Below the pieces are notes generated by a model. That model was given only the letters and a program-made list of their open reading frames with translations. It was not told the DNA's origin and searched no databases. DNA of 64,000 nucleotides. Source: Natronolimnohabitans innermongolicus JCM 12255 (GTDB lineage: Archaea; Halobacteriota; Halobacteria; Halobacteriales; Natrialbaceae). Of the stretch, positions 15,736 through 32,104 are shown piece after piece. The stretch lies in NCBI RefSeq assembly GCF_000337215.1, contig NZ_AOHZ01000052.1, positions 1 through 64,000 on the forward strand, written 5' to 3'. Each line of letters opens with the position of its first letter. Within the stretch, counting starts at the first letter, position 1. The translations under genes and the position numbers were made by a program.

Positions 15736-16134
15736 TCAGTCGGACGATTCTCGCCAGATCAGTCCCTCGATCGTTCCGTCCAGGACGGTCTCACCGGCCT
15801 CGTTTTCACAGCCCACGTTGACGGCGACCTCGTAGCGATCGTCTCGCTCTGTGACGGCGTCGAAGATCCACGTGCAACTGATCCGGTCGCCCGTGTAGAC
15901 CGGTCGGACGAACTCGAATGCCATCGCCGTCGCCAGCACCTCGAGGTCGCCGCCGATCTTCGTCGGGAGGGTCGCGGTCAGCAGTCCGTGGACCAGTAAC
16001 TGACCGTCGTCGGGTTCGGTGTGTCGATCCTGTGTATCACCCGATACCTCGGCGAACCGCTCGACCTCGTCGGTCGTGAACGTCCGTGCGAACGTATGGG
16101 TTTCACCGACGGTTGGACGACACACACTAGCCAC
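15736..16134 (-). CDS. MaoC-like hot-dog protein
   Basis: A 132-residue single hot-dog domain. The hydratase motif region reads SGDTQDRHTEPDDGQLLVHGLL; the family's D-x4-H pair is kept (Asp and His at about residues 33 and 38) although the usual N-P between them is replaced by Q-D. The segment 'FVRPVYTGDRISC' is the standard conserved strand of MaoC dehydratases. The gene's start overlaps the end of the upstream livF-type gene by eight bases, so it is the last gene of the transporter operon. A role in hydrating the enoyl-CoA product of the imported substrate is possible; the changed motif leaves room for a non-hydratase role. Confidence 0.78.
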   Translation of the reverse strand: MASVCRPTVGETHTFARTFTTDEVERFAEVSGDTQDRHTEPDDGQLLVHGLLTATLPTKIGGDLEVLATAMAFEFVRPVYTGDRISCTWIFDAVTERDDRYEVAVNVGCENEAGETVLDGTIEGLIWRESSD

Positions 16135-16855
16135 CTTCGAAGATCCGTTCGATCTCTTCGTTTTCCGTGATCGGTTCGTCGCGGCCGATCTCGGTCACGA
16201 TCTCGCCCCGTTCGATGACGTATGCCCGATCGGCGATCTCTGCCGCGTGGCGGACGTTCGATTCCGCCACGACGATCGAGATTCCGAGGTCTTTGATGCG
16301 CGTGACGCCGTCGCGGAACTGCTCTCTCACGGAGGGTGCGAGTCCCTCGAACGGCTCGTCGAGCAACACGATGTCGGGATCCGAAGTGAGCGCCCGCCCG
16401 ACGGTGACCATCTTCTGCTGGCCGCCGCTCAGTTGACCGGCCGGTCGGTCGAGGAACGCTTCCATCTCGGGGTAGATCTCGAGTACTCGGTCTCGACGTT
16501 CTCGGAACCCGTCTTCGTCGGTGTCGGCTTTTCCCCACGTGGACATCCGCAGGTTATCTTCGACGGAGAGCGTGGTGAACAACCGTCGGTCCTCAGGTGC
16601 GAACCCGACGCCGTGACGAATCCGTTCCCTCGACGGGCGGTCCGTGAGATCGGTTCCGTTCACCCGAATCGAACCGTTCCGAATCGAGGTCTGGCCCATC
16701 ACCGATCGGAACGTCGTCGTCTTGCCCGCCCCGTTGCGACCGATCAGCGCGACGGTCTCGCCCGCCTCGACCCGAATCGAAACGTCCTCGAGAACCGTCG
16801 CTCGGTCGATACTGACGGTGAGGTCGTCGACGTCGAGTAGCGACTGGTGGCTCAT
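16127..16855 (-). CDS. livF: Branched-chain amino acid-type ABC transporter ATPase (LivF-like)
   Basis: A 242-residue ABC ATPase. Walker A is GRNGAGKTT near residue 39, the signature is LSGGQQKMV near 141, and Walker B is IVLLDEPFEGLAP near 160, the last phrase typical of LivF. It begins three bases after the end of the livG-like gene and belongs to a five-gene HAAT-family transporter operon on the minus strand (binding protein, two permeases, two ATPases). It powers uptake together with the LivG homologue. Transporters of this family carry branched-chain amino acids, amides, urea or aromatic acids, so the substrate cannot be read from this gene. Confidence 0.92.
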   Translation of the reverse strand: MSHQSLLDVDDLTVSIDRATVLEDVSIRVEAGETVALIGRNGAGKTTTFRSVMGQTSIRNGSIRVNGTDLTDRPSRERIRHGVGFAPEDRRLFTTLSVEDNLRMSTWGKADTDEDGFRERRDRVLEIYPEMEAFLDRPAGQLSGGQQKMVTVGRALTSDPDIVLLDEPFEGLAPSVREQFRDGVTRIKDLGISIVVAESNVRHAAEIADRAYVIERGEIVTEIGRDEPITENEEIERIFEGG

Positions 16856-16857
16856 CG

Positions 16858-17658
16858 TCAGACACCCCCCTCGAGGATGAACTGGTTGACCGCTTCGGAG
16901 TTCATCACGGCCGCCGGATCGTCGTCGTCGAGCACGCGCCCCTCGTGGAGGGCGACGATTCGATCGGAGTACGAGCGGATGAGTTCCATGTCGTGTTCGA
17001 TGAAGATGAGGCCGATGTTCCGCTCGACCGCCGCGTCGGTGATGGTCTCCATCACCGCGTTTTTCTCTCGAGAGCCGACGCCGCTCGTCGGTTCGTCGAG
17101 CACCATGAGTTTCGGCCGGAGCGCGAACGACATCGCCACGTCGAGGATCTTGCGTACCCCGTGTGGCAGGTGTTCGGTGTGTTCGTCCGCGTGTGACTCG
17201 AGGTTGAACATCTCGAGCAGTCGCTCGGTCTCCTCGATGGAGGCGGTGTCGCGATGGGTGAGCGAGAACAGCCGATTGTTCTCTTGCTTTCGGGAGAGAA
17301 CGCTCGACTGGACGTTTTCGAACACGGTGAGCTCGTCGTAGATCTGTGGGATCTGGAACGAGCGGACGAGGCCCCGTCGAACGCGCTTGTACTTGCGCAG
17401 ATCGGAGATGTCGTCGCCGTCGAAGACGATCGTCCCGTCAGTCAGTGAGAGCGCACCCGAAATGAGGTTCGTGTACGTCGTCTTTCCGGCGCCGTTCGGG
17501 CCGATGATACCGACGATCTCGTCGTCGTAGAACTCGAGGCTCACACCGTCGACGGCGACGAGGTTACCGAACTCCTTGCGGACGTTTTCGGTTCTGAGGA
17601 TCGGTTCCGTCGATGCGTTCTGCGTCGTGGACGTGGAGTCCGTTTCTCGCGTGCTCAT
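16858..17658 (-). CDS. livG: Branched-chain amino acid-type ABC transporter ATPase (LivG-like)
   Basis: A 266-residue ABC ATPase. Walker A is GPNGAGKTT near residue 53, then the LivG-typical 'RRGLVRSFQIPQIYDELTVFENV', and Walker B MVLDEPTSGVGSREK. The signature is less standard, with 'LPHGVRKILDVAMSFA' in place of LSGG(Q), the form usual for LivG. A C-terminal extension (VALHEGRVLDDDDPAAVMNSEAVNQFILEGGV) fits the LivG C-terminal lid. Its start overlaps the end of the upstream livM-like gene by four bases. It forms a heterodimer with LivF under the LivHM channel. Confidence 0.92.
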   Translation of the reverse strand: MSTRETDSTSTTQNASTEPILRTENVRKEFGNLVAVDGVSLEFYDDEIVGIIGPNGAGKTTYTNLISGALSLTDGTIVFDGDDISDLRKYKRVRRGLVRSFQIPQIYDELTVFENVQSSVLSRKQENNRLFSLTHRDTASIEETERLLEMFNLESHADEHTEHLPHGVRKILDVAMSFALRPKLMVLDEPTSGVGSREKNAVMETITDAAVERNIGLIFIEHDMELIRSYSDRIVALHEGRVLDDDDPAAVMNSEAVNQFILEGGV

Positions 17659-18692
17659 GAGTCGTCCCTCCGTTCGTTGAGATCGTCGACAAGCGCCTTT
17701 GCACCGCCCCAGATGCCCTTCTCACGGAGCGTCAGCACCACCACGAACAACACGAGACCCATGGTGAAGTGCCAGTAGGTCGTAACGCCGAGTGCTACCT
17801 CCTGGAGGATGATGAAGCCGCTGGCGCCGATGATGGGGCCGAGGAAGGTACCGATACCACCGAGCAGTGCCATGAAGACGATCTCGCCGGACATCGTCCA
17901 GTCGAGGTACTCCGGCGTGACGTGTCCGACCACGACAGCGTAGAGGGCACCGGCGAGTCCGACGATCATCGCCGAGAGGACCATCGAATACAACCGATAC
18001 CGAAGTATCGGGACGCCGCTCATCTCGGCTCGCGTCTCGTTCTCACGGATCATCTTCAGCGTGAGCCCGAACGGCGAGCGGAGGACGAGCCAGAGCACCG
18101 CGATCGTCGCGAACAGACACACGAGAATCACGTGGTAGTAAAAGCCCATCAGGTAGATATGGGCCGGCGCCTCGCTGATCGGGATACCCAGGAAATCGGG
18201 ACGACTGAGCCCGATACCGTCCGTTCCGCGGGTGAGTCCGCCGACGTCTCGAGCCGCGAGGACGTAGAGGAGCTGTGCCAGCGCCAGCGTCAACAGCGCA
18301 AAGTAGATCTCGTGGGTCTTGACCGAGAGCGCGCCGATGACCGCGCCAACGACGCCGGCCGCCAGCATCGCCAGCACGAGCAAAACGATGAGGTCGGTGA
18401 TTCCGGCGCTCTCCATCGCGATCACCACGGTGTACATCCCGGTTCCGAAGAACGCGGCGTGGCCGAACGACAGCAGTCCAGTGTAGCCGAGGACGATGTT
18501 GAACCCGAGCGCAGCGATAGCGAAACACATGATCCACGCCAGCAGCCGGGTGTGGTACGCGTTCATCGTCAGCCCGGGGTACAGCGCGAGGGCAGCGAAC
18601 AGAACGCCCCCTCCGAGCAGGCGCTTATCCAGGAGAAGCCCCTTCAGCTCCTGGGCTTTCATGTCGCCGAACGTCGGCAAGCGAGTGCTCAT
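17655..18692 (-). CDS. livM: Branched-chain amino acid-type ABC permease (LivM-like)
   Basis: A 345-residue polytopic membrane protein. I start at ATG 18692 (MSTRLPTFGDMKAQELKG), which overlaps the livH stop by four bases, instead of a much longer frame whose extra 139 codons are the antisense of livH. Typical LivM features: 'ALGFNIVLGYTGLLSFGHAAFFGTGMYT' with the GLLSFGHAAF motif near residue 65-80, and the cytoplasmic coupling loop 'MIRENETRAEMSGVPILRYRLYSMVLSA' near 220. It forms the transmembrane channel with LivH. Confidence 0.92.
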   Translation of the reverse strand: MSTRLPTFGDMKAQELKGLLLDKRLLGGGVLFAALALYPGLTMNAYHTRLLAWIMCFAIAALGFNIVLGYTGLLSFGHAAFFGTGMYTVVIAMESAGITDLIVLLVLAMLAAGVVGAVIGALSVKTHEIYFALLTLALAQLLYVLAARDVGGLTRGTDGIGLSRPDFLGIPISEAPAHIYLMGFYYHVILVCLFATIAVLWLVLRSPFGLTLKMIRENETRAEMSGVPILRYRLYSMVLSAMIVGLAGALYAVVVGHVTPEYLDWTMSGEIVFMALLGGIGTFLGPIIGASGFIILQEVALGVTTYWHFTMGLVLFVVVLTLREKGIWGGAKALVDDLNERRDDS

Positions 18693-19597
18693 TCTACCAC
18701 CCCCTCGTCGCCGAACAGTCCCTCGGGTTTGAAGATGATGACGAGCGCCATTAACCCGAAGACGATCGCCAGCTCCAGTGCCGGGAAGTACGCGATCCCG
18801 AAGCTCCGGACCATGCCGATGACGAGCGCAGCGACCACGACGCCCTTGAGGCTCCCGAGTCCACCGATGACGATCACGGCGAACGAGAGCAGGACATACT
18901 CGAGTGTCACCGCCGGCGTCGCCGTCGCGAAGGGAACGAACAGTGCACCGCCGAGGGCGGCGATGGCGACCGAGATGCTGAATATCAGGACGCGAACGCG
19001 GTTGACGTTGATACCGAGCATCTGAACCATCTCGTAGTCCTCCGACATCGCCTGGGAGATCTTCCCGAGTTTCGTCTTGACGAACATGAGGTAGAGCCCG
19101 ACCGCACATGCGACGGCGATCAGGATGACGAACGACCGGTAGGCGGACACCGAGACGCCCATCAGGTCGATCGCCCCCAGTTGCCGGGACGGATCGGTGG
19201 CTCCGTCGACCGTAATCGGGGACGCACCCCAGATGAACTTGATCACGTCGTCGAGCATCAGGATCACGCCGAACGTCGCCAACAGCTGGTAGACGTGCTC
19301 GATCTCGTACAGCGGGGCGAAGACCGTCTTATCGAGTACTGCCGACAGGACGAACACGACGAGCGGGATCACGAGGACGAGCATCGCCAGGAGGACGACC
19401 GTCGACGTCGTGACGTCGCCCGCGTTGTTCAGCGTCCAGACGGCCACGTAGGCTCCGAGACCGTAGAACGCGGCGTGTGCCATGTTCAGCAGGTTGAGGA
19501 TACCGAACACGAGCGTCAGTCCCACCGACGCGAAGAACAACAGGGCCGCAAAGTAGAGCCCGTTGAACGTGTTTACCAGGAGTGATTCGATCGGCAT
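18689..19597 (-). CDS. livH: Branched-chain amino acid-type ABC permease (LivH-like)
   Basis: A 302-residue polytopic membrane protein with the LivH hallmarks: N-terminal 'LFFASVGLTLVFGILNLLNMAHAAFYGLGAYVAV' (the GLTLVFG and N-AH-F-LGAY patterns), a coupling loop 'SQAMSEDYEMVQMLGINVNRVRVLIFSISVAIAALGGAL', and a C-terminal 'SFAVIVIGGLGSLKGVVVAALVIG' segment. It follows the binding-protein gene by six bases and overlaps livM by four, so all transporter genes are one transcription unit. Confidence 0.93.
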   Translation of the reverse strand: MPIESLLVNTFNGLYFAALLFFASVGLTLVFGILNLLNMAHAAFYGLGAYVAVWTLNNAGDVTTSTVVLLAMLVLVIPLVVFVLSAVLDKTVFAPLYEIEHVYQLLATFGVILMLDDVIKFIWGASPITVDGATDPSRQLGAIDLMGVSVSAYRSFVILIAVACAVGLYLMFVKTKLGKISQAMSEDYEMVQMLGINVNRVRVLIFSISVAIAALGGALFVPFATATPAVTLEYVLLSFAVIVIGGLGSLKGVVVAALVIGMVRSFGIAYFPALELAIVFGLMALVIIFKPEGLFGDEGVVE

Positions 19598-19603
19598 TCG
19601 TTC

Positions 19604-20941
19604 TCACCCCGTCACCGGCTCGAGTTCGTCGACCCAGTCCATCGTCGGATCGTCCTCCGGTGGATTGACCTCTGCCGCCTCGATGAACTCGAACTCTCCG
19701 AGGAGCGGATGGTCGACGGGAAGGTCGTGGTCGTCGGTCGGGCGTCCGAAGACGGCCGGTGCGGCCGCCTGTGGCCCGTACATCGTATGCTGTCCGTGGG
19801 GCGATTCGAACGCGATGTTGTTCATCGCCGCCGTGAGCTGCTCGCCGGTCGGCCAGTCACCGATGATCGATACCGCGCGTTCGACGCCCTCCTGGAGCGC
19901 CTGGAAGCCCATCCATTCGTGGTAGGCTCCCCACCCCGGCAACTGATCGTATCGCTCGTAGTACTCATCGACGAACTCCCTGTGGGCCTCGTCCTCGTCG
20001 TAGCGGTAGTTCGGCTGGTAGCCGCCCCGACCACCAAGCCAGACATTCTCTGGCATAGACCCGCCCAGAGAGCTGAGCAGGGGCGCACCGGTGTCGCCGA
20101 TCAACAGGGACTGGTCGACCGCCTCGAACATCCCGCCGTCGACGCCCTGGGAGACGAACGTCGCGATATCGCCGCCCCACAGGCTCGAGAACAGGAGGTC
20201 CGGTTCCGCGTCGGCGATCGCGGAGACGTGGGCGCTGTAGTCGGTCTCACCCAGTTCCGGATACCGCGATTCGACGATCTCGACGTCCGCGCCGACGGCC
20301 TCGAGGCCGGCTTCGAACATCTCCTGGTGATCGTGTCCCCAGGCGTAGTCGGGATCGATCGTGATCACCGTCTCGACGTCGTCCATCTGTTCGACCATCC
20401 GAACGGCGCCGACCGCACCGGCGGCGTTCGACCCCGCCGTTCGGACGACGTACTCCATGTCCGGATTCTCCTCGAACAGCTGGTAGGTTCCGGGCATCGT
20501 TACCAGAAACGGGAACTGCTGGTCGTTCGCTGCCGGCGCCACCGCGAGCGAGTGGGCACTCGAGACGATCCCCATGAGCATGTCTACCTCGCCTTCCTGT
20601 GCCATTGCCTGTACGTCACTGATCAGCGAGTCCGGTCCCGCGTCCTCGTCGAGTCGGTCGACGATCTCGATCTCGCGCTCGCCGATCAGTCCGCCCTCGT
20701 CGTTGATTCGATCGACCAGCATATCGCTCGCGTTCATCGCTTCTTCGCCGTAGAACGCCGGCGGGCCGGATTCGAAGATCATCTGGACGATACGGAACGG
20801 TTCGTCCGGGATGCCGTCGATTTCGTCCGTGCCGAAGTCCTCCTGGAGGAGAGCACAACCCGCCAGTGATCCGAGTGCCGTTACCGCGGCGGACCCCTTC
20901 AGGAAGTGCCGTCGGGAGATTCGTGAGTTGTCTTTCGTCAT
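19604..20941 (-). CDS. Branched-chain amino acid-type ABC binding protein, Tat lipoprotein (LivJ-like)
   Basis: A 445-residue periplasmic-binding protein type I. The N-terminus SRRHFLKGSAAVTALGSLAGC is a Tat motif (RRHFLK) with a lipobox; Cys29 should be lipid-modified and hold the protein on the outer membrane face. The body has the Leu/Ile/Val-binding fold ('GEEAMNASDMLVDRINDEGGLIGEREIEIVDRLDE...', 'MLMGIVSSAHSLAVAPAAND', and a 'VETVITIDPDYAWGHDHQEMF' region). A GTTTAT motif at 20961-20966, read as ATAAAC on the coding strand, lies about 24 bp ahead of the ATG and is a likely TATA box. It captures the substrate of the LivHMGF transporter; neighbouring catabolic genes suggest an organic acid rather than an amino acid. 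Confidence 0.88.
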   Translation of the reverse strand: MTKDNSRISRRHFLKGSAAVTALGSLAGCALLQEDFGTDEIDGIPDEPFRIVQMIFESGPPAFYGEEAMNASDMLVDRINDEGGLIGEREIEIVDRLDEDAGPDSLISDVQAMAQEGEVDMLMGIVSSAHSLAVAPAANDQQFPFLVTMPGTYQLFEENPDMEYVVRTAGSNAAGAVGAVRMVEQMDDVETVITIDPDYAWGHDHQEMFEAGLEAVGADVEIVESRYPELGETDYSAHVSAIADAEPDLLFSSLWGGDIATFVSQGVDGGMFEAVDQSLLIGDTGAPLLSSLGGSMPENVWLGGRGGYQPNYRYDEDEAHREFVDEYYERYDQLPGWGAYHEWMGFQALQEGVERAVSIIGDWPTGEQLTAAMNNIAFESPHGQHTMYGPQAAAPAVFGRPTDDHDLPVDHPLLGEFEFIEAAEVNPPEDDPTMDWVDELEPVTG

Positions 20942-21623: not shown

Positions 21624-23420
21624 TCACAGGATCGTTCCGTGTTTCTTGCTCGGAAGATCTTTCTCGAGGCCCTCGTAGAACGCGAACCTGGCCTCGAGTT
21701 CGTCCCGAAGCTCGCTTGGCGGCACGATCTCGTCGATGACGACCTCGCTGGCCATCCGGTGGACGTCGATGTCCTCGCGGTACTCCGCGCGCAGTTCGGC
21801 CTCCTTCTGGGCGCGCTCCTCGGGGTCGTCGATCGCGGCCAGCTTGTTCGCGTAGACGGCGTTGATCGCGGCTTCGGGACCCATGATTGCGATCTCGCCG
21901 CTGGGCAATCCGAGCACGCTCTCGGGGTCGTAGGCCGGCCCCGACATCGCGTAGATGCCGGCGCCGTAGGCCTTCCGGACGACGACCGACTGTTTCGGGA
22001 CGGTCGCCGAGGAAGTCGCGTAGATCATCCGCTTGCCCTGCTCTAAGATCCCCTCCTTTTCGACCTGCGAGCCGGCCATGAAGCCGGGGGTGTCACACAG
22101 GTAGAGCAGCGGAATCTCGTAGGCGTCGCAGGTCCAGATGAACTGGGCGGCCTTCTCGGCGGCGTCGGGGAAGATCGCGCCGGCGCGCTGTTTCGGCTGG
22201 TTCGCGACGATGCCGACCGGCCGGCCGTCGATGCGGGCGAAGGCCGTGATGATCTCGGGTCCGTATTCCGGGCGGAGCTCGAGTACGGAATCGGCGTCGA
22301 CGACGCGCTCGATGACGTCGAACATGTCGTAGCCCTTGTTCGGCTCCTGGGGGACGATGGAATCGACCTCGGCGGGCGAGCGCTCCGGCGCCCGACCCTC
22401 CGTCTGCGGGGGCTTCTCGTCGGCGTTGTCGGGCAGGTAGCCGATGAGTTTCGCGACGAGTTCGCGCGCGTGTTCTTCGTCCTCGGCGATCAGATCCGCG
22501 CTGCCGGAGTGGCGGGCGTGAACGTCCGGGCCACCCAGGTCGTCGAGATCGATCTCTTCGCCGGTGACCATCTCGACCATCCGCGGGGAGGCGATGGCCA
22601 TCGCGGAGACGTCCCGGACCATGACGGTGAAGTCGGCGAAGACGGGCGTGTAGGCGGCGCCGGCGATGCAGGGGCCGTAGAGCACGCAGATCTGCGGGAC
22701 GCGCCCGGAGAGCATCGAGTGGTTGTAGTAGTACTTTCCGATGCCCTCGCGGTTGGCGAAAAAGCCCGTCTGCTGGTCGATTCGGCCACCCGAGGAGTCC
22801 ATCAGGTAGAGCACGGGTTTCCCCGTCTTCAGGGCGCGTTGTTGCATCCGGAGGAACTTCTCGACGCCCTTCTCGGCCATCGAGCCCGCCTTGACGGTGA
22901 AGTCGTTGGCCATGAAGTGGACGTCTCGGCCTTCGAACTCGGCGGCGCCGGTGATGAGCCCGTCCGCCGGGATGCGGTTTCCGGAGTCAGCCTCGCCGGC
23001 CTGTCCGTCGGGGTGCCACTCGTCGAAGTTGGCGAACCGGCCGTCCTCGAACTGCAGGCCGTCGTCGCCGAACCAGAGGTCCAGTCGGTCGCGGACGAAC
23101 AGCTTCCCCTGGTCGGCGAGTCGCTCGCGGTACTTCTCGGGGCCGCCCTCGAGGATATCCTCGATCTCGTCGCGAAGCTTGTGCTCGCGGTCGGTCGGGC
23201 CGAGGTCGTCGGCCGGCGGAGCGCTCGAGGTGCCGCCGTCCCCGGTCGCGGATGCGTCCTTCCCGGACGGGGTACCGGCCGACGCCGGTGACGCGGTCGC
23301 GAGCAGTTCGCCGTCGGTCTCGGCGTACAGCTCTACGTCGTCGCCGAGATGAGACGCGAGGGCCTTTGCAATCGCCTGTGCTTCCTGATCCGTCGTCGCG
23401 TCGGTGATTTTCACTTCCAT
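21624..23420 (-). CDS. Biotin-dependent acyl-CoA carboxylase, carboxyltransferase subunit
   Basis: A 598-residue carboxyltransferase of the PccB/MccB family. An N-terminal leader of about 85 residues (MEVKITDATTDQEAQAIAKALASHLGDD followed by a Ser/Ala-rich linker) precedes the crotonase-fold core. The acyl-CoA-binding N lobe has 'YLMDSSGGRIDQQTG' near residue 210-225 and 'LSGRVPQICVLYGPCIAGAAYTP'; the C lobe has 'ADSVLELRPEYGPEIITAFARIDGRPVGIVANQP' and 'LCDTPGFMAGSQVEKEGI', the oxyanion-hole region. It directly follows the biotin-carboxylase gene by two bases, so the two form one carboxylase. SSGGR-D-QQ is closer to methylcrotonyl/geranyl-CoA carboxylase text than to propionyl-CoA carboxylase, but I cannot settle the substrate. 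Confidence 0.9.
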   Translation of the reverse strand: MEVKITDATTDQEAQAIAKALASHLGDDVELYAETDGELLATASPASAGTPSGKDASATGDGGTSSAPPADDLGPTDREHKLRDEIEDILEGGPEKYRERLADQGKLFVRDRLDLWFGDDGLQFEDGRFANFDEWHPDGQAGEADSGNRIPADGLITGAAEFEGRDVHFMANDFTVKAGSMAEKGVEKFLRMQQRALKTGKPVLYLMDSSGGRIDQQTGFFANREGIGKYYYNHSMLSGRVPQICVLYGPCIAGAAYTPVFADFTVMVRDVSAMAIASPRMVEMVTGEEIDLDDLGGPDVHARHSGSADLIAEDEEHARELVAKLIGYLPDNADEKPPQTEGRAPERSPAEVDSIVPQEPNKGYDMFDVIERVVDADSVLELRPEYGPEIITAFARIDGRPVGIVANQPKQRAGAIFPDAAEKAAQFIWTCDAYEIPLLYLCDTPGFMAGSQVEKEGILEQGKRMIYATSSATVPKQSVVVRKAYGAGIYAMSGPAYDPESVLGLPSGEIAIMGPEAAINAVYANKLAAIDDPEERAQKEAELRAEYREDIDVHRMASEVVIDEIVPPSELRDELEARFAFYEGLEKDLPSKKHGTIL

Positions 23421-25227: not shown

Positions 25228-26394
25228 TCAGTAGGACTTGGGGAAGCCGAGTTGCTGACCGATGTGGTTGTACGCCATCTGCTGGGAGACCGGTGCGAGT
25301 CGGGTGAGGTTGATCTCGCGCCACCAGCGTTCGACGTCGTACTCCGTCGCGTAGCCCCAGCCGCCGAAGGCCTGCATGGCGTGTCTGACCGCCTCGATGC
25401 CAGCCTCGACGGCCGTCGCCTTGGCCACGTTCGTCTCGTAGCCGCAGTCGTCGCCGCGATCGTAGAGCCACGCGGCCTTCTCGCGCATGAGCGTGGCCGT
25501 CTCCATTTTCGCGTACGCCTCGGTGATCGGGAACGAGACGGCCTGGTGGGTGCCGATCGGCGAGCCGAAAACCTCGCGCTCGTTCGCGTACTCGATGGCC
25601 GCGTCGGCCGCGAGTTTGCCGATCCCCGTACCGGCGGCCGCGAAGCCGATCCGTTCGGGGTTGAGCATGTCCACGAGCACCCACCAGCCGTCGTCGACCT
25701 CGCCGAGCAGGTCCTCCTCGGGGACGCGGACGTCCTCGAGGAAGACCTCACAGGAGTTCGAGTAGTTCATCGCGTGTTTGGGGATCGGTGCGACGTCGAC
25801 GTTCGGATCGTCCATATCGACGACGAAGAGGCTGATACCGTCGGTACCGCGGTCGACCTCCTCGCGGGGCGTCGTCCGCGTCACGAGGATCATGTTATCT
25901 GCGCGGTCGGCGAAGGTGATCCAGGCCTTCTGTCCGTTCAGGACGTACTCGTCGCCGTCTCGCTCGGCGCGGGTGGCGACGTTCAACGTGTTCGTTCCCG
26001 CCTCGGGTTCGGTGATCCCGATCGAGAAGTTACGGGTTCCGGTGGCGATATCGGTCAGGTAGCGCTCTTTCTGCTCGGCCGTCCCGTGTTCGCGGAGCCC
26101 CACCGCGGCCATTCCGGCGGTCAGGACCAGATACCAGGTGCCGGCCATGCCACACCCCTCGGCACAGAGGGTCTCCATCGCCAGCCCCATCTCCTGCATT
26201 CCCATGCCGGCGCCGTCGTACTCTTCGGGGATCAGCAGGCCGTGAAAGCCCGCCTCGGCGAGTTCATCCCAGAACCCGTTCGAGAACTCGCCGTTCTCTT
26301 CTTTTTCGCGCCAGTGTTCGGGACCGAACCGGTCGGCAATCTCGGTCGCCGTCTGGCGGATCAGTTCGCGTTCTTGCGTGTCTTCGAAGTTCAT
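25228..26394 (-). CDS. Acyl-CoA dehydrogenase
   Basis: A 388-residue FAD-dependent acyl-CoA dehydrogenase. The FAD/acyl region '[12 protein letters not shown]' is near residue 124 and '[22 protein letters not shown]' near 153. The usual YEGT glutamate of medium-chain enzymes is absent near the C-terminus ('[21 protein letters not shown]'), but Glu247 in '[13 protein letters not shown]' lies where isovaleryl- and long-chain acyl-CoA dehydrogenases carry their catalytic base (L.ERL). This suggests a branched or long acyl-CoA. It sits between the CoA-ligase and biotin-carboxylase genes in one minus-strand operon. Confidence 0.9.
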
Positions 26395-26521: not shown

Positions 26522-28204
26522 TCAGGCCGCTTCGGCTTCCTCTTCGACCTCGTCTTGCAGCTCCGTGCGACGAATCTTCCCGGTGACCGTCTTCGGCAGT
26601 TCCTCGCGGAACTCGATCGCGCGGGGATACTCGTGAGCCGATAGTTCGTCTCGCACGTGGGCCTTGATCTCCTCTTTGAGGTCTTCGGACGTCGTCGTGT
26701 CCTCGCTGGGCACGATGTAGGCCTTCACGATATTCCCCCGTTCGCGGTGGGGCTTTGGCACGACGGCGGCCTCGGCGACGGCCTCGTGTTCCCCGAGCGA
26801 ACTCTCGACTTCGAAGGGGCCGATTCGGTAGCCCGAAGAGAGGATGACGTCGTCGGCCCGCCCCTCGAACCAGATGTAGCCGTCTTCGTCTTTGTGGGCG
26901 AGGTCCCCCGAGAGGTACCACTCGCCGTCGGGACCGTCGACGAAACAGTCGGCGGTCTTCTCGGGCTTTTCCCAGTACTCCGCGAAGAAACACGGATAGT
27001 CCCCGCGCTGGGCGATTTCGCCCGTCTCGCCGGGCTCGAGCACCTCGCCCGTTTCGGGATCGACGATATCGGCCTCGATTCCGGGCAGCGGCTTGCCCAT
27101 CGATCCCGGCCGGATCTCCATCGTCGGGTAGTTATTGACGATCATGTTGCCCGTCTCGGTCTGACCGTAGGTGTCGTGGATCGTCACACCGAGCGTCTCC
27201 TCGCCCCATTCGACGACGCCCGCCGAGAGCGGTTCGCCGATCGACAGGGCGTGGCGCAGGTCCAGCGAGACGTCCTCGAGGACCTCCTGGTGTTCGCGAA
27301 GCATGCGGTAAGCGGTGGGAACCGAGAACAGCACGGTGACGGGGTAGGTATCGAGGAGGTCGGCCCACGTCTCGGGGTCGAACTCGCCCTCGTAGGTGAA
27401 CAGCGCGGTGCCCCAGAACCAGGCGCCGAGCGTGTTGATCGGCCCGGTCAGCCAGCCCAGGTCACCGGTCGACCAGTAACAGTCGCCCTCCTGCAGGTCG
27501 ACGGCGTACTTTTGCGTGGCGGCGACGCCCGTGACCCACCGGTGCTTGTGACGGACGCCCTTCGCCAGCCCGGTCGTCCCGCTGGTGTAGTAGAGCAGGG
27601 CGTCGTCTTCGCCGCTCGTCGCCGCCGGCTCGTACTCGCGGCTCGCGGTCTCCATCTCGCCGCGGTAGCTGACGTCTCCAGTACGAATGCCCGTTCCGTC
27701 GTCGCTGACAACGATGACGTGTTCGACCGTCGGCGCATCCTCCAGCGCGTCCGCGACGGTATCGCGGTTCTCGGGAGTCGTCACGATCGCTTTCGCGTCG
27801 CAGTCGGCCAGCCGGTAGGAGATTCCGTCGGGACCGAACCGCTCGTTGACGCCGCCGAAGACGGCGCCGCGCTTGAGCGTTCCCACGAGCGCGACGTAGT
27901 GCTCGGGGATTCGCGGCATGTACGAGAAGACGCGGTCTCCCTGTTCGATCCCGAGCGACTCGAGAACGTTCGCGAATCGGTTCGTTGCCTCGGCGAGCTC
28001 CCAGAACGTCATCGTCGTCAGCTCGCCGTCCTCGCCGACCTGATAGAGTGCGACTTTCTCCTTGTTCTCGGCGTGGCGGTCACAGACCTCGTGTGCGATG
28101 TTCAGTTCGTCCGGTGCGTTCCAGTCGGCGGCCTCGTAGAGCTCGTCCCACGTGAATTCCTCGTGTACGTTCTCGTACTCCGGCAGATTGTGGCTGGATG
28201 GCAT
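26522..28204 (-). CDS. AMP-forming acyl-CoA synthetase
   Basis: A 560-residue adenylate-forming ligase of the medium-chain/benzoate-type family: P-loop 'YYTSGTTGLAKGVRHKHRW' near residue 185, the 'YGQTETGNM' A5 motif near 340, 'YLSGDLAHKDEDGYIWFEGRADDVILSSGYRIGP' and the C-terminal catalytic lysine in 'LPKTVTGKIRRTEL'. It would activate a carboxylic acid to its CoA ester, the entry step of the following dehydrogenase and carboxylase. Family similarity favours ATG 28204 (MPSSHNLPEYENV). A GTG at 28255 is in frame and lies 27 bp from a good TATA box (28276-28285), so a leaderless start there, adding 17 residues with three cysteines, is also possible. C-terminal 73 residues of the tail are ordinary. 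Confidence 0.88.
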   Translation of the reverse strand: MPSSHNLPEYENVHEEFTWDELYEAADWNAPDELNIAHEVCDRHAENKEKVALYQVGEDGELTTMTFWELAEATNRFANVLESLGIEQGDRVFSYMPRIPEHYVALVGTLKRGAVFGGVNERFGPDGISYRLADCDAKAIVTTPENRDTVADALEDAPTVEHVIVVSDDGTGIRTGDVSYRGEMETASREYEPAATSGEDDALLYYTSGTTGLAKGVRHKHRWVTGVAATQKYAVDLQEGDCYWSTGDLGWLTGPINTLGAWFWGTALFTYEGEFDPETWADLLDTYPVTVLFSVPTAYRMLREHQEVLEDVSLDLRHALSIGEPLSAGVVEWGEETLGVTIHDTYGQTETGNMIVNNYPTMEIRPGSMGKPLPGIEADIVDPETGEVLEPGETGEIAQRGDYPCFFAEYWEKPEKTADCFVDGPDGEWYLSGDLAHKDEDGYIWFEGRADDVILSSGYRIGPFEVESSLGEHEAVAEAAVVPKPHRERGNIVKAYIVPSEDTTTSEDLKEEIKAHVRDELSAHEYPRAIEFREELPKTVTGKIRRTELQDEVEEEAEAA

Positions 28205-28275
28205 ACACAGCCGCTGGTTCCGTTCTCCGCAATAACTGCATCGGATAGTTTCCACCCTTACATTAGAAATATGAA

Positions 28276-28285: not shown

Positions 28286-28586
28286 CGTCTATTATTACTG
28301 AAACCCCGACGCAGGCTTGCGTAAACGGTTTCGAAAACGCCAGTGGGCCGATGAAGGGAGTATCACGAATTCGTACGACCTGCCGATACCCGGTCGCTCG
28401 GAGCGGTTCGTCGCTTCTCACACGAACGTCCGTCCCGTCTCGGAGCGGTCGATGCTCGCGAGCGCGTTGGAGTTCGTTTCCGAAGCGCTCTTGGAGCGTA
28501 CAGCACGTCACCGGTGGAACGGAGAAACGGATCGACCGGCCGCTGGCAGGACTCATACGAATGGCTGTAACGATGTACTGTCGATC

Positions 28587-28710
28587 GTCAGAACGGGACC
28601 GGCAATCGGCGGTAATCGTCAGAACGGGACCGGCAATCGGCGGTAATCGTCAGAACGGGACCGGCAATCGGCGGTAATCGTCAGAACGGGACCGGCAATC
28701 GGCGGTAATT
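28587..28710. repeat. Four tandem copies of a 31-bp repeat
   Basis: The unit begins GTCAGAACGGGACCGGCAAT and continues CGGCGGTAATC. Copies start at 28587, 28618, 28649 and 28680. The first three are identical; the last differs only at its final base (T for C). There are no spacers, so this is not a CRISPR array. The unit length is not a multiple of three and the repeat lies between the divided ends of two transcription units (UbiD operon end at 28728, ligase promoter near 28280). Confidence 0.95.
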
Positions 28711-28727: not shown

Positions 28728-30116
28728 TCAGGGCGAGTCCGGATCGGTGTCGAACCCGAATTCGGCCCACGAGCCGCGGATCGCCGCTCGGAGGTTTGGG
28801 GGGTACGACTCGGTAAGCGAGACGCGTGGCGCGATGTATTCTTCGTCCCACCGCGGATCCCACGTCGCGTTCACGTAGAGGCGGGCCCCGGTCTCGCCCC
28901 GACCGTACGTCGGTAAGCGAGCGACCGGCGCGTCGGCTTCGCTGAACAGCCAGTCTCGAGACGGATGCGCTTTGACCCAGACGTCGGCGAAGACCTGTCC
29001 GAGGTCACGGGGACTGGCTTCGTCGTCGACGACGACGACCGTATCGTAACAGTCCGAGAAGGAAAACAGGAAGTTCGAGAGCTGCCACTCGAAGCCAGCG
29101 TACAGCATCTCCGTCGAGACCACGCAGAGTCCGAGCCGTCCCGCCGCCGGCAACAGGAGCCACTCGACCGGAGCGACGCCCCAGTAGCTGTTCGCTCGGT
29201 CGTAGAGGGTTGCCGCCAGCGCCAGTCCGACGAGTTGCAGGTCGTCGGTCAGCGGGACGTCGAGCGGCGTGAACGGGACGACCGCGTCGTCGCGGACGAA
29301 CACGCTATTTACGTCGAGTGTCAGGGTCGTTGCGTCGACGAGTCGCTCCCAGAATTCCCGCTTCTCAGCACGCGTATCGGGCTGGGGGTCCGAGATTTCG
29401 GCCTCGAAGACGATCTCTGCCGAGCTGGGGACGACGCCACCGCCGGTCGGGATCACCGGGACCGTCGAGCCGACGTCGCGATCCTCGATCGGCGTCGAGA
29501 GGCGGTCGGTGATCGTCAGGAAATACGCCGCTGCGAGCGCTTCGGACGGAACCCCGAGCGCGACGCTCACGACGTCGCCTCGGTCGAACCGGTCGGTTAT
29601 CGCTTCGGGAACGCGAGCTCGAACCGTGTTGTCGTCGATGACCGTTCCGTGGATTGGTGCCCAGTACGAGCCGTCGTTGGCGCCGACCGAGATGAGCCCG
29701 AGCGTGACGCGAGGCCAGGTCTCGTCCGGCGGTGTCGGGAACCCGAGTTCGCGAACGGTTCGATCGGTGGCGGTTGCCGCTCGCTCGACGTACGTAACGT
29801 CGCGCGTCTCGATGCGGTCGCCGAGTCGAGCGATCCGCTCGAGGACGTCGACGTAGTCGGGGTCTCGATCGATGCCCAGTCCGAGCCCGAGGCGGCTCCA
29901 GGGATAGCGGTCTCCCCGACTCGACTGGTCGACGCCGCCGTAAGCCCCGTTGACGAGTTCGATACGCGAGTCGTCGGTCGAAAACCGTACCGCCGAACAG
30001 TCGGCGCGGAGTCCCTCGCCGGCGATCACCTGCGGCGACGGCGTCTCGGGACGCTCGAGCGAGCGGAGATCGTCGGTTTTCCGGAGGAACTCGAGGTGGC
30101 TTCGAAACGCTGTCAT
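28728..30116 (-). CDS. UbiD-like protein lacking the decarboxylase active-site motifs
   Basis: A 462-residue protein related to the UbiD neighbour by shared segments: an N-terminal 'YGGVDQSSRGDRYPWSRLGLGLGI' corresponding to the UbiD 'DPYRGPQQRPWEWFGRAFGF', and 'CVVSTEMLYAGFEWQLSNFLFSFSDCYDTVVVVDDEASPRDLGQVF' corresponding to its 'VIATDRSYPGVLHELANFIFTTWGMLHIDFFVFVDSD'. The catalytic UbiD motifs are missing: where the neighbour has R-x-x-I-H-D this protein has 'YWAPIHGTVIDD' with no Arg, and the EGPFG-D motif is replaced by 'AEKREFWERLVDATT'. It is therefore probably a non-catalytic partner or a protein with a new activity. Its start overlaps the UbiD stop by four bases, which implies coupled expression. 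Confidence 0.75.
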   Translation of the reverse strand: MTAFRSHLEFLRKTDDLRSLERPETPSPQVIAGEGLRADCSAVRFSTDDSRIELVNGAYGGVDQSSRGDRYPWSRLGLGLGIDRDPDYVDVLERIARLGDRIETRDVTYVERAATATDRTVRELGFPTPPDETWPRVTLGLISVGANDGSYWAPIHGTVIDDNTVRARVPEAITDRFDRGDVVSVALGVPSEALAAAYFLTITDRLSTPIEDRDVGSTVPVIPTGGGVVPSSAEIVFEAEISDPQPDTRAEKREFWERLVDATTLTLDVNSVFVRDDAVVPFTPLDVPLTDDLQLVGLALAATLYDRANSYWGVAPVEWLLLPAAGRLGLCVVSTEMLYAGFEWQLSNFLFSFSDCYDTVVVVDDEASPRDLGQVFADVWVKAHPSRDWLFSEADAPVARLPTYGRGETGARLYVNATWDPRWDEEYIAPRVSLTESYPPNLRAAIRGSWAEFGFDTDPDSP

Positions 30117-31621
30117 CGTCCCGATTCGATCGTATGAGGTGGTTCGAACGCCTGTTCGGGAACGCCCGCCTGAGTGAGCAGTTCGCGGGCCCGCCGTCGC
30201 GCGTCGCGGTCACCGATCGACTGTGGTGGCCGACTGTCGTCGGAGCAGGCATCGATGTACGCCTTCGACGTCTTCGTTCGCGAGGTCCCGACGTCTACGC
30301 TCCCCTTCTCGTCTGGTGTCTGATAAATATTGAGCGGGACTTTCGGCATTCGCTCGACGCCGAACTGGTGAAAGTCTGTGGCGGGATCGGCGTGGAGCGC
30401 GATCGCTTCGATCACCGCCCGAGGGGAGAGTGGATTGACGTCGCTGTCGACGAAGACGAAGAAATCGATGTGGAGCATTCCCCAGGTAGTGAAGATGAAG
30501 TTCGCGAGTTCGTGGAGGACGCCGGGATAGGACCGATCGGTCGCGATGACCCAGACTGTCCGAGAGGTGTAGGGCCACGGCGCCGCCAGTTCGACGTCGA
30601 AGCCGGCGATTCGCAACCCGAGCGTGGCGTCCGGTCCGCCGGCAGCGGTCGCGAAGGTGCTCGTGGAGTTTTCCCCGTATCCGACGCCCGTCCCCTCGAC
30701 ACAGAAGGGAACGTACGGCTCGCTACGGTGGGTGATCGCGTCGACCTCGAGCACCGGCATCGATCGACGGGGGCCGTTCATGTACCCGAAATAATCGCCG
30801 AACGGACCCTCGTCGAGCCGCTCGTTCGGTAGCACTCGTCCCTCGATCACGACCTCGGCCGACGCAGGGACGCGGAGATCGTTCGTCTCGCACTCGACGA
30901 GTTCGGCCGGCGACGTCCGGAGTCCGCCGGCGAAAGAGACCTCGCTCCGTCCGACCGGAATCCACATCTCCGCGGTGGACTCGATCGCCGGTCCGGCACC
31001 GATCGTCAGGGCGACGGGCATCGGTTTGTCGGCGGGCTCGTACTCGAAGTAGTAGCGGTTTGGAACCTGTTCGCCCGCCAGGAGGAGCAGACTCGCTTGC
31101 GACGAGTCGTGGATCATCGCCCGGTGGCGCGACCAGCTTCCCCACTCGCTGTTCGGGTCCGGTGCGACGAGCGTCGCGAGCGTCGCGTACCGACCACCGT
31201 CTCCCCGATGAATGTACGGCCAGGGGAACTCGAGCAGACTCGCGTCGGCGCCCGTTCGGACGACGTCCTTGCAGGGTGCCTCGTTGGCGGGAACGGTCCG
31301 AGGCTCGATCGGATCGCGCAGTCGCTCGATGACCCCTTCGTAGTAGACCGGGCCGGAGTCGATCGGAAAACCGAACGCACGACCGAACCACTCCCAGGGT
31401 CGCTGCTGTGGCCCGCGATAGGGATCTCCGACGAGACGAGCGTCGACCGCCGACTCCCGGGTTCGGACGGATTCGAAGATCGGAACCCGGCCGTCCGTCT
31501 CGTTGGCCTGCATCGTGACGGCGCTCGCCTCGAGGTCCCACGACACGTCGTCGGTGATCCGCGTGACCGCGTCGTTGTTTTCGAGGACGTCGAGAAACGC
31601 CCGGAACGAGTCGACCGACAT
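30113..31621 (-). CDS. ubiD: UbiD-family decarboxylase (prFMN-type)
   Basis: A 502-residue UbiD-fold protein. It keeps the acid-base triad of the family: Arg167 in 'SWSRHRAMIHD', Glu271 and Asp276 in 'LDEGPFGDYFGY' (equivalent to Glu277/Glu282 of fungal Fdc1), and the 'AELVECETNDLRVPASAEVVIEG' strand that precedes them. Such enzymes use prenylated FMN for reversible decarboxylation of aromatic or unsaturated acids. No UbiX flavin prenyltransferase gene is present in the window, so the cofactor must come from elsewhere. Its start adjoins the stop of a 160-residue protein gene and its end overlaps the gene of a degenerate UbiD. Substrate unknown; the neighbouring ligase, dehydrogenase and carboxylase suggest an aromatic or branched unsaturated acid. 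Confidence 0.88.
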   Translation of the reverse strand: MSVDSFRAFLDVLENNDAVTRITDDVSWDLEASAVTMQANETDGRVPIFESVRTRESAVDARLVGDPYRGPQQRPWEWFGRAFGFPIDSGPVYYEGVIERLRDPIEPRTVPANEAPCKDVVRTGADASLLEFPWPYIHRGDGGRYATLATLVAPDPNSEWGSWSRHRAMIHDSSQASLLLLAGEQVPNRYYFEYEPADKPMPVALTIGAGPAIESTAEMWIPVGRSEVSFAGGLRTSPAELVECETNDLRVPASAEVVIEGRVLPNERLDEGPFGDYFGYMNGPRRSMPVLEVDAITHRSEPYVPFCVEGTGVGYGENSTSTFATAAGGPDATLGLRIAGFDVELAAPWPYTSRTVWVIATDRSYPGVLHELANFIFTTWGMLHIDFFVFVDSDVNPLSPRAVIEAIALHADPATDFHQFGVERMPKVPLNIYQTPDEKGSVDVGTSRTKTSKAYIDACSDDSRPPQSIGDRDARRRARELLTQAGVPEQAFEPPHTIESGR

Positions 31622-32104
31622 CTATCGATCCTCGAGGACCTCCCGGAGCGGGTCGGACTCGTACTCGCTCTCGACCGCCGCGTACGTTTCGAGCAGCGAC
31701 GGGTGTTCCTCGGCGAGTCCCTCGAACAGGAGCTCCCGGGCCGCCTGCGCCGCCGATTCGTACTCCCCGGCCTCGGCGAGATACCGGAGCAAGACGTTCA
31801 GGTCCTTCGACCTCGTGTTGATGACGTTCGACCGATCTCCCTGCTCGTCGAGCAGTCGCTCGAGTTGTTCCTCGATCGTCTTCGTCTCGCCGACGAACTC
31901 GATGTACCACTGCTCGCTCGTGGTCTCGTGGGGGCCCTTGACGACTGAGAGCGGTTTCGGTCGCTCGAGTCGTGCCGGATCCCTCGCGATGCGCGCCCGC
32001 GAGTGGAAGATCTCTTTCGTCTCGGCGTCGCGCACCTGGAGGTCCGTTTCCGTCCCCTCGGCGTCCGGAAGTTGCGCTTCGGAAGTGATGTATTCATCTG
32101 ACAT
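31622..32104 (-). CDS. Uncharacterised 160-residue protein, first gene of the UbiD operon
   Basis: An acidic, helical-looking protein starting MSDEYITSEAQ. The N-terminal half (residues 1-75) has beta-rich text with a 'SVVKGPHETTSEQWYIEFVGETK' stretch; the C-terminal half is helical, with 'LLRYLAEAGEYESAAQAARELLFEGLAEEHPSLLETYAAVES', which has the spacing of a short tetratricopeptide-like helix pair. I do not recognise a family. It is not the small VdcD/ShdD-type subunit of phenolic-acid decarboxylases, which is about half its size and differs in text. The UbiD gene follows with no gap. The start is ATG 32104, preceded by a palindromic operator candidate; a GTG-type upstream extension looks non-coding. 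Confidence 0.6.
   Translation of the reverse strand: MSDEYITSEAQLPDAEGTETDLQVRDAETKEIFHSRARIARDPARLERPKPLSVVKGPHETTSEQWYIEFVGETKTIEEQLERLLDEQGDRSNVINTRSKDLNVLLRYLAEAGEYESAAQAARELLFEGLAEEHPSLLETYAAVESEYESDPLREVLEDR

Follow-up and report, generated by a model that had tools for sequence, protein, structure and literature searches.

A haloarchaeal UbiD locus with a conserved pseudo-UbiD paralogue, mostly in genomes where UbiX was not found

UbiX is regarded as the obligate partner of all UbiDs (PMC8379154; PMC10865409), and the described systems closest to the locus studied here follow this rule. PA0254/HudA, fungal Fdc1 and TtnD are single UbiD gene products that need UbiX-made prenylated flavin mononucleotide (prFMN) and have no pseudoenzyme partner. 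Phenylphosphate carboxylase (PpcABCD) combines two UbiD paralogues and small proteins in one operon, with UbiX encoded in the same cluster. The vanillate (VdcBCD) and gallate (LpdBCD) decarboxylases combine a UbiD and UbiX (VdcB/LpdB) with a small partner protein, VdcD being a zinc ribbon and LpdD a Pba3-Pba4-like chaperone (PMC8379154, PMC10865409). The literature we searched contained nothing relevant on haloarchaeal UbiD operons, on UbiDs without UbiX or on UbiD pseudoenzymes. Here we analyse a three-gene locus of Natronolimnohabitans innermongolicus JCM 12255, hereafter the triad, in which a catalytic UbiD is encoded between a 160-residue protein (P1) and a degenerate UbiD paralogue (P3). 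The window is the whole 64,000-nucleotide stretch analysed (contig NZ_AOHZ01000052.1, positions 1 to 64,000), and its genome is haloarchaeal, 4.59 Mb in size, 99.8% complete and related to Natrialbaceae. The features of the triad are as follows:

31622-32104, minus strand: P1, 160 amino acids from the ATG at 32104, probable DNA-binding regulator of the operon
30113-31621, minus strand: UbiD, 502 amino acids, catalytic UbiD-type subunit
28728-30116, minus strand: P3, 462 amino acids, pseudo-UbiD paralogue
30113..30116, minus strand: 4-nucleotide overlap ATGA, shared by the stop codon of UbiD and the start codon of P3

The order on the minus strand is P1, UbiD, P3, with no gap at the P1-UbiD junction, as a first-pass annotation of the sequence had described it (three minus-strand genes joined without gaps or by a four-base overlap). 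The ATGA overlap may couple the translation of UbiD and P3. An in-frame upstream GTG would give a P1 of 178 amino acids; the alignment of its relatives begins at ATG 32104. The closest named relative of the window's UbiD is in Natronolimnohabitans sp. A-GB9 (86%). To assess conservation we used a family sample of 125 Natrialbaceae genomes and a phylum sample of 393 genomes. The order P1-UbiD-P3 recurred in all 63 haloarchaeal loci found with UbiD, so that the three genes do occur together in other genomes, one of the two points on which the first-pass annotation had said its reading could fail. Each of the 49 P3 loci in the family sample (47 genomes) has UbiD adjacent on the same strand, one genome (G085) carries a second complete triad, and the UbiD-P3 overlap measures 4 nucleotides in 60 of 69 relatives. 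UbiD and P3 form one clade each (100/100) with mostly matching branching, and their distances correlate at 0.94. The branches joining the two clades are long, that of the P3 stem very long, which leaves the order of descent unsettled. In the phylum sample P1 occurred in the same gene order only, apart from weak hits to short ribbon-helix-helix (RHH) proteins, and UbiD adjoined it in 10/10 P1 loci inspected. The conservation of the triad far exceeds chance.

The middle gene encodes a UbiD that scores above the curated Pfam cut-offs for PF01977, PF20695 and PF20696 (1.6e-61, 5.2e-15 and 3.6e-8). Its best sequence relatives are PA0254/HudA, fungal Fdc1 and the TtnD branch (3.6e-44), with which it shares the Glu-Arg-Glu/Asp network: Arg167, Glu271 and Asp276, noted earlier in this one sequence, are invariant in 70/70 catalytic relatives, as is the metal ligand E227. 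By contrast, the metal/phosphate loop differs from that of these relatives. The triad UbiDs have an invariant loop, 182-AGEQxPN-188, at a place where the loop of other UbiDs varies or bears a His, and Asp386 where most UbiDs have Lys or Arg; both features are particular to them. We also compared the columns of Asn168, His191 and Glu233, which we take to be the metal/prFMN-phosphate ligands of A. niger Fdc1 in presumed numbering. In triad UbiDs the first is replaced by D/R/S/T/H and the second by T/V/L/A, while Glu233 is kept in 70/70. Since UbiDs encoded beside UbiX likewise vary at the Asn168 and His191 equivalents, we dropped their loss as proof against prFMN binding; the residue changes fit an altered cofactor site but do not prove it. 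Three Natrialba loci (L040, L042, L048) stand out by distinctly longer predictions for P1, UbiD and P3, with a UbiD of up to 562 amino acids; insertions or start-codon uncertainty are possible causes.

P3 is recognisable as a UbiD by several routes. As a single sequence, the window's P3 matched Pfam UbiD_C at 6.5e-11 and the middle UbiD domain marginally; as a family, P3 matched all three UbiD domains and full-length solved UbiDs. Modelling P3 alone, a check proposed in the first-pass annotation, gave a complete UbiD fold in AlphaFold2 (predicted local distance difference test 79.9, predicted template modelling score 0.82; rows from plasmid records were left out of the structure-prediction inputs), and the best PDB match in Foldseek was again PA0254/HudA (E 2.4e-24), the three relatives named above also being the best fold relatives of P3. 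The catalytic acids, on the other hand, are lost: the motif E[AG]Pxx[ED] is present in 0/70 P3 proteins, and no intact catalytic residues were found elsewhere in the paralogue. The first-pass annotation had P3 losing both the EGPFG-D acids and the Arg, and this was correct for the acids throughout. The Arg column contains His in 34 of the 70 proteins, Arg in 27, Tyr in 5 and other residues in 4; it is mostly His in the window's branch (His156 in the window) and Arg in 27/31 of the other branch, so we dropped Arg loss as a general trait of P3 and regard it as branch-specific. P3 has about 50 invariant positions and conserved motifs of its own (PVxW, LGxC, LYAGFEWQLAN, KAHPxxDW, WDPRW and IAPRV). 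Its ratio of nonsynonymous to synonymous substitution rates (dN/dS) is 0.05-0.24, similar to that of the catalytic subunit, and no internal stops occurred in any genome surveyed. P3 is under purifying selection and is not decaying.

The genomes with a triad mostly lack UbiX, which is the strongest anomaly of the locus and, like the wider operon, was not noted in the first-pass annotation. In the window's genome a single UbiD reaches Pfam strength, and in place of UbiX only a CoaBC-type flavoprotein turned up. Two independent queries against the 125 family genomes found UbiX in exactly six, five of them with UbiDs lacking P3 and one (G055) with the triad plus other UbiDs. UbiX was thus found in 6/6 Natrialbaceae genomes with another UbiD and in 0/46 having triad-type UbiDs only. 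Among 33 triad genomes outside the family sample, Halobellus rufus (G137) alone has UbiX; it is also the sole one with an additional UbiD, which shares a contig with UbiX at a distance of about 6 kb. Pooling these data, UbiX occurred in 0/78 genomes with triad UbiDs only versus 7/7 with any other UbiD, for which Fisher's test gives 2e-10, a value that overstates the association because the genomes are related and not independent. Both genomes with a triad and another UbiD carry UbiX and follow the rule. In total UbiX was not found in 78/80 triad genomes, the window's own included, while the CoaBC-type flavoprotein was recovered in all 80, indicating that the search was sensitive. Control searches found no UbiD in Haloferax volcanii. 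For non-triad haloarchaeal UbiDs, UbiX is commonly encoded within a few kb. Some haloarchaea have, in addition, two UbiDs that belong to other types and bear no relation to the triad, with UbiX encoded close by (loci L104, 3474-7630, and L105, 5011-6498 and 11324-12862).

For P1 as a whole, no convincing sequence match was found in Pfam, NCBIfam, PHROG or PDB. In the predicted model the N-terminal part consists of five strands and the C-terminal part is helical; we delimit the two as follows:

about residues 1-72: N-terminal beta domain, invariant Y5, T7, E19, Q23 and G57-P58-H59-E60
about residues 90-150: C-terminal RHH-like domain, invariant R98, S117, A121 and R123

The C-terminal half is most likely an RHH DNA-binding domain of the CopG, ParD and SegB kind, to judge by both its predicted fold and its motif. 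VIA-align gave middling Z scores of 6.0 against the archaeal RHH protein SegB (73/74 residues) and 6.2 against ParD, and the motif VxNTRSxDLxxLLxYLVETGxYxSxSEAxR follows the RHH pattern. The P1 profile also finds 59-residue archaeal proteins placed by Pfam in RHH_1 at 3.6e-9 (hhalign probability 95.9), P1 itself being below the Pfam cut-offs. P1 differs from CopG, ParD and SegB in its additional N-terminal beta domain, and it is probably a regulator of the operon with an N-terminal sensing domain and predicted DNA binding. We found no conserved operator upstream of P1, which settles nothing on DNA binding. For a relationship to VdcD, LpdD or PpcG we found no support: P1 matched none of them by sequence, and none was among the fold matches listed.

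The genes downstream of the triad in the window are on the same strand:

26522..28255, minus strand: AMP-forming acyl-coenzyme A (acyl-CoA) ligase, 577 amino acids, adjoins the triad in the window's branch
25228..26394, minus strand: acyl-CoA dehydrogenase, 388 amino acids
23423..25153, minus strand: biotin carboxylase that includes a biotin carrier domain, start uncertain
21624..23420, minus strand: acyl-CoA carboxyltransferase subunit, 598 amino acids
21098..21565, minus strand: MaoC-type hydratase, 155 amino acids, nearest NCBIfam model RipB/Ich
16127..20941, minus strand: branched-chain-amino-acid/HAAT-type (liv) ABC transporter with binding protein, two permeases and two ATPases, read from translations

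The operon of the window's branch resembles branched-chain acyl-CoA catabolism, and its relatives have a RipC/CitE-like lyase nearby. We take the combination of acyl-CoA dehydrogenase, carboxylase, MaoC and CitE-like lyase to parallel a mycobacterial leucine operon. PMC6689899 supports the R-specific route for leucine together with its lyase, though not the layout of the operon. In the other branch the context consists of metallo-beta-lactamase-fold, thiolase, enoyl-CoA hydratase and phenylacetyl-CoA-epoxidase-like genes, and the second triad of G085 lies with a CoA ligase, a liv/HAAT transporter and a thiolase. An acyl-CoA ligase is common to most triad contexts and a liv-type transporter to some. 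The recurrence of the ligase suggests that the triad acts either before activation, on a free acid, or after it, on the CoA ester of that acid. Since 121/125 family genomes have the carboxyltransferase, the majority of them without a triad, the acyl-CoA pathway is the core and the triad an add-on. Beyond the transporter genes lies an amidohydrolase gene (PF04909; 14751-15656, plus strand), and Haloarcula sinaiiensis (L101) likewise has an amidohydrolase in the vicinity of the operon. A 31-bp unit is repeated in 4.1 perfect copies at 28584-28709, in the stretch that separates P3 from the acyl-CoA ligase gene; it did not occur elsewhere in the window's genome (up to 3 mismatches) or in the other loci fetched.

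The pairing of two UbiD paralogues recalls phenylphosphate carboxylase. However, PpcA and PpcB both keep the Arg and the E..E acids, unlike P3, which makes P3 a different kind of partner. No gamma, delta or UbiX gene was found near the triad, and the Ppc system has no P1 or P3 homologue. After the phenylphosphate carboxylase genes of Azoarcus sp. KH32C (L122 6265-13004) come those for a third UbiD, for UbiX, for a protein of the DUF120 family and for a NUDIX hydrolase, a group that is possibly a cofactor-supply set. An active enzyme with a conserved dead paralogue is also found in enzyme-prozyme pairs, such as trypanosome S-adenosylmethionine decarboxylase with its prozyme and deoxyhypusine synthase (PMC5201418, PMC3663545). 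Their fold and chemistry are unrelated, and activation is proven there, whereas for the triad it is a proposal.

We propose, with a probability of roughly 0.6, that the triad encodes a heteromeric UbiD/pseudo-UbiD (de)carboxylase that feeds acyl-CoA catabolism without canonical UbiX. The catalytic UbiD and an obligate, non-catalytic P3 would most likely assemble into a hetero-oligomer by way of the C-terminal oligomerisation domains. In it, P3 would stand in for one half of the homo-oligomer that UbiDs usually form, and would shape or regulate the active site. The Glu-Arg-Asp centre of the catalytic subunit may then reversibly (de)carboxylate an unsaturated or aromatic acid, and the product or substrate would pass to the adjacent CoA ligase and into acyl-CoA catabolism. 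In the window's branch this would continue through acyl-CoA dehydrogenase, the biotin-dependent carboxylase and the MaoC hydratase, as when branched-chain acids are broken down. Of the complex suggested in the first-pass annotation, the pairing of UbiD with a conserved degenerate paralogue is borne out, and the heteromer itself is still a proposal. P3 might instead act independently, co-transcribed with UbiD, for example as a substrate-binding or CoA-ester-binding protein that is no complex partner. Its invariant motifs absent from UbiD and its very long stem branch would suit such a role, which we nevertheless consider quite unlikely: in 49 loci P3 never occurs without UbiD, the genes overlap by ATGA and branch in parallel, and the domain best preserved in P3 is the one by which known UbiDs assemble into dimers or hexamers (PMC8379154, PMC8988006). 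That P3 is the product of a decaying pseudogene might be read from its lost catalytic residues, but its dN/dS, its uninterrupted reading frames and its invariant residues contradict this, and the probability is practically nil. For P1 the first-pass annotation suggested a new accessory protein, and P1 would be of this kind if it acted as VdcD or LpdD do, as an allosteric activator or as a chaperone that binds prFMN. P1 always adjoins UbiD, and its missing sequence similarity is no bar because the known small partners of UbiDs are mutually dissimilar (PMC8379154). Yet neither VdcD nor LpdD matches P1 by sequence, and the RHH-like profile and predicted fold of its C-terminal half make a regulator likelier, so that we regard the accessory role as unlikely.

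The cofactor is harder to judge. Working in cells without UbiX, the triad enzyme would be independent of prFMN made by the known route; either it uses another cofactor, or it uses the usual one through an unrecognised route. We give nearly an even chance to a heteromer that works without prFMN, with another cofactor or none, in cells lacking a known flavin prenyltransferase. Several points weigh against our proposal: the Glu-Arg-Asp triad, which in known UbiDs acts next to prFMN, is fully kept, so that prFMN from an unrecognised synthase is possible; the substitutions at the prFMN site are not decisive; and the downstream genes differ between branches. An ordinary prFMN-dependent UbiD, supplied by a haloarchaeal flavin prenyltransferase unrelated to UbiX and not yet recognised, is a possible though doubtful alternative. 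It would account for the invariance of the catalytic residues and of E227 (70/70), and the closest solved relatives are prFMN enzymes. However, 7/7 halophiles with other UbiDs have a normal UbiX, and the alternative route would therefore serve the triad only. Moreover, D386 and the AGEQxPN loop are unlike those of prFMN enzymes, and except for P1 no candidate synthase gene accompanies the triad in both branches. Synthesis of prFMN by one of the triad proteins themselves, for example P1, is less likely.

A UbiD type that is widespread in haloarchaea and occurs without UbiX makes the rule of an obligate UbiX testable: either UbiDs can do their chemistry without prFMN from UbiX, or prFMN can be made in a second way. 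P3 would be, to our knowledge and in the literature searched, the first pseudoenzyme partner for the UbiD family. An obligate dead partner would also explain why expression of single genes annotated as such 'UbiD decarboxylases' may fail.

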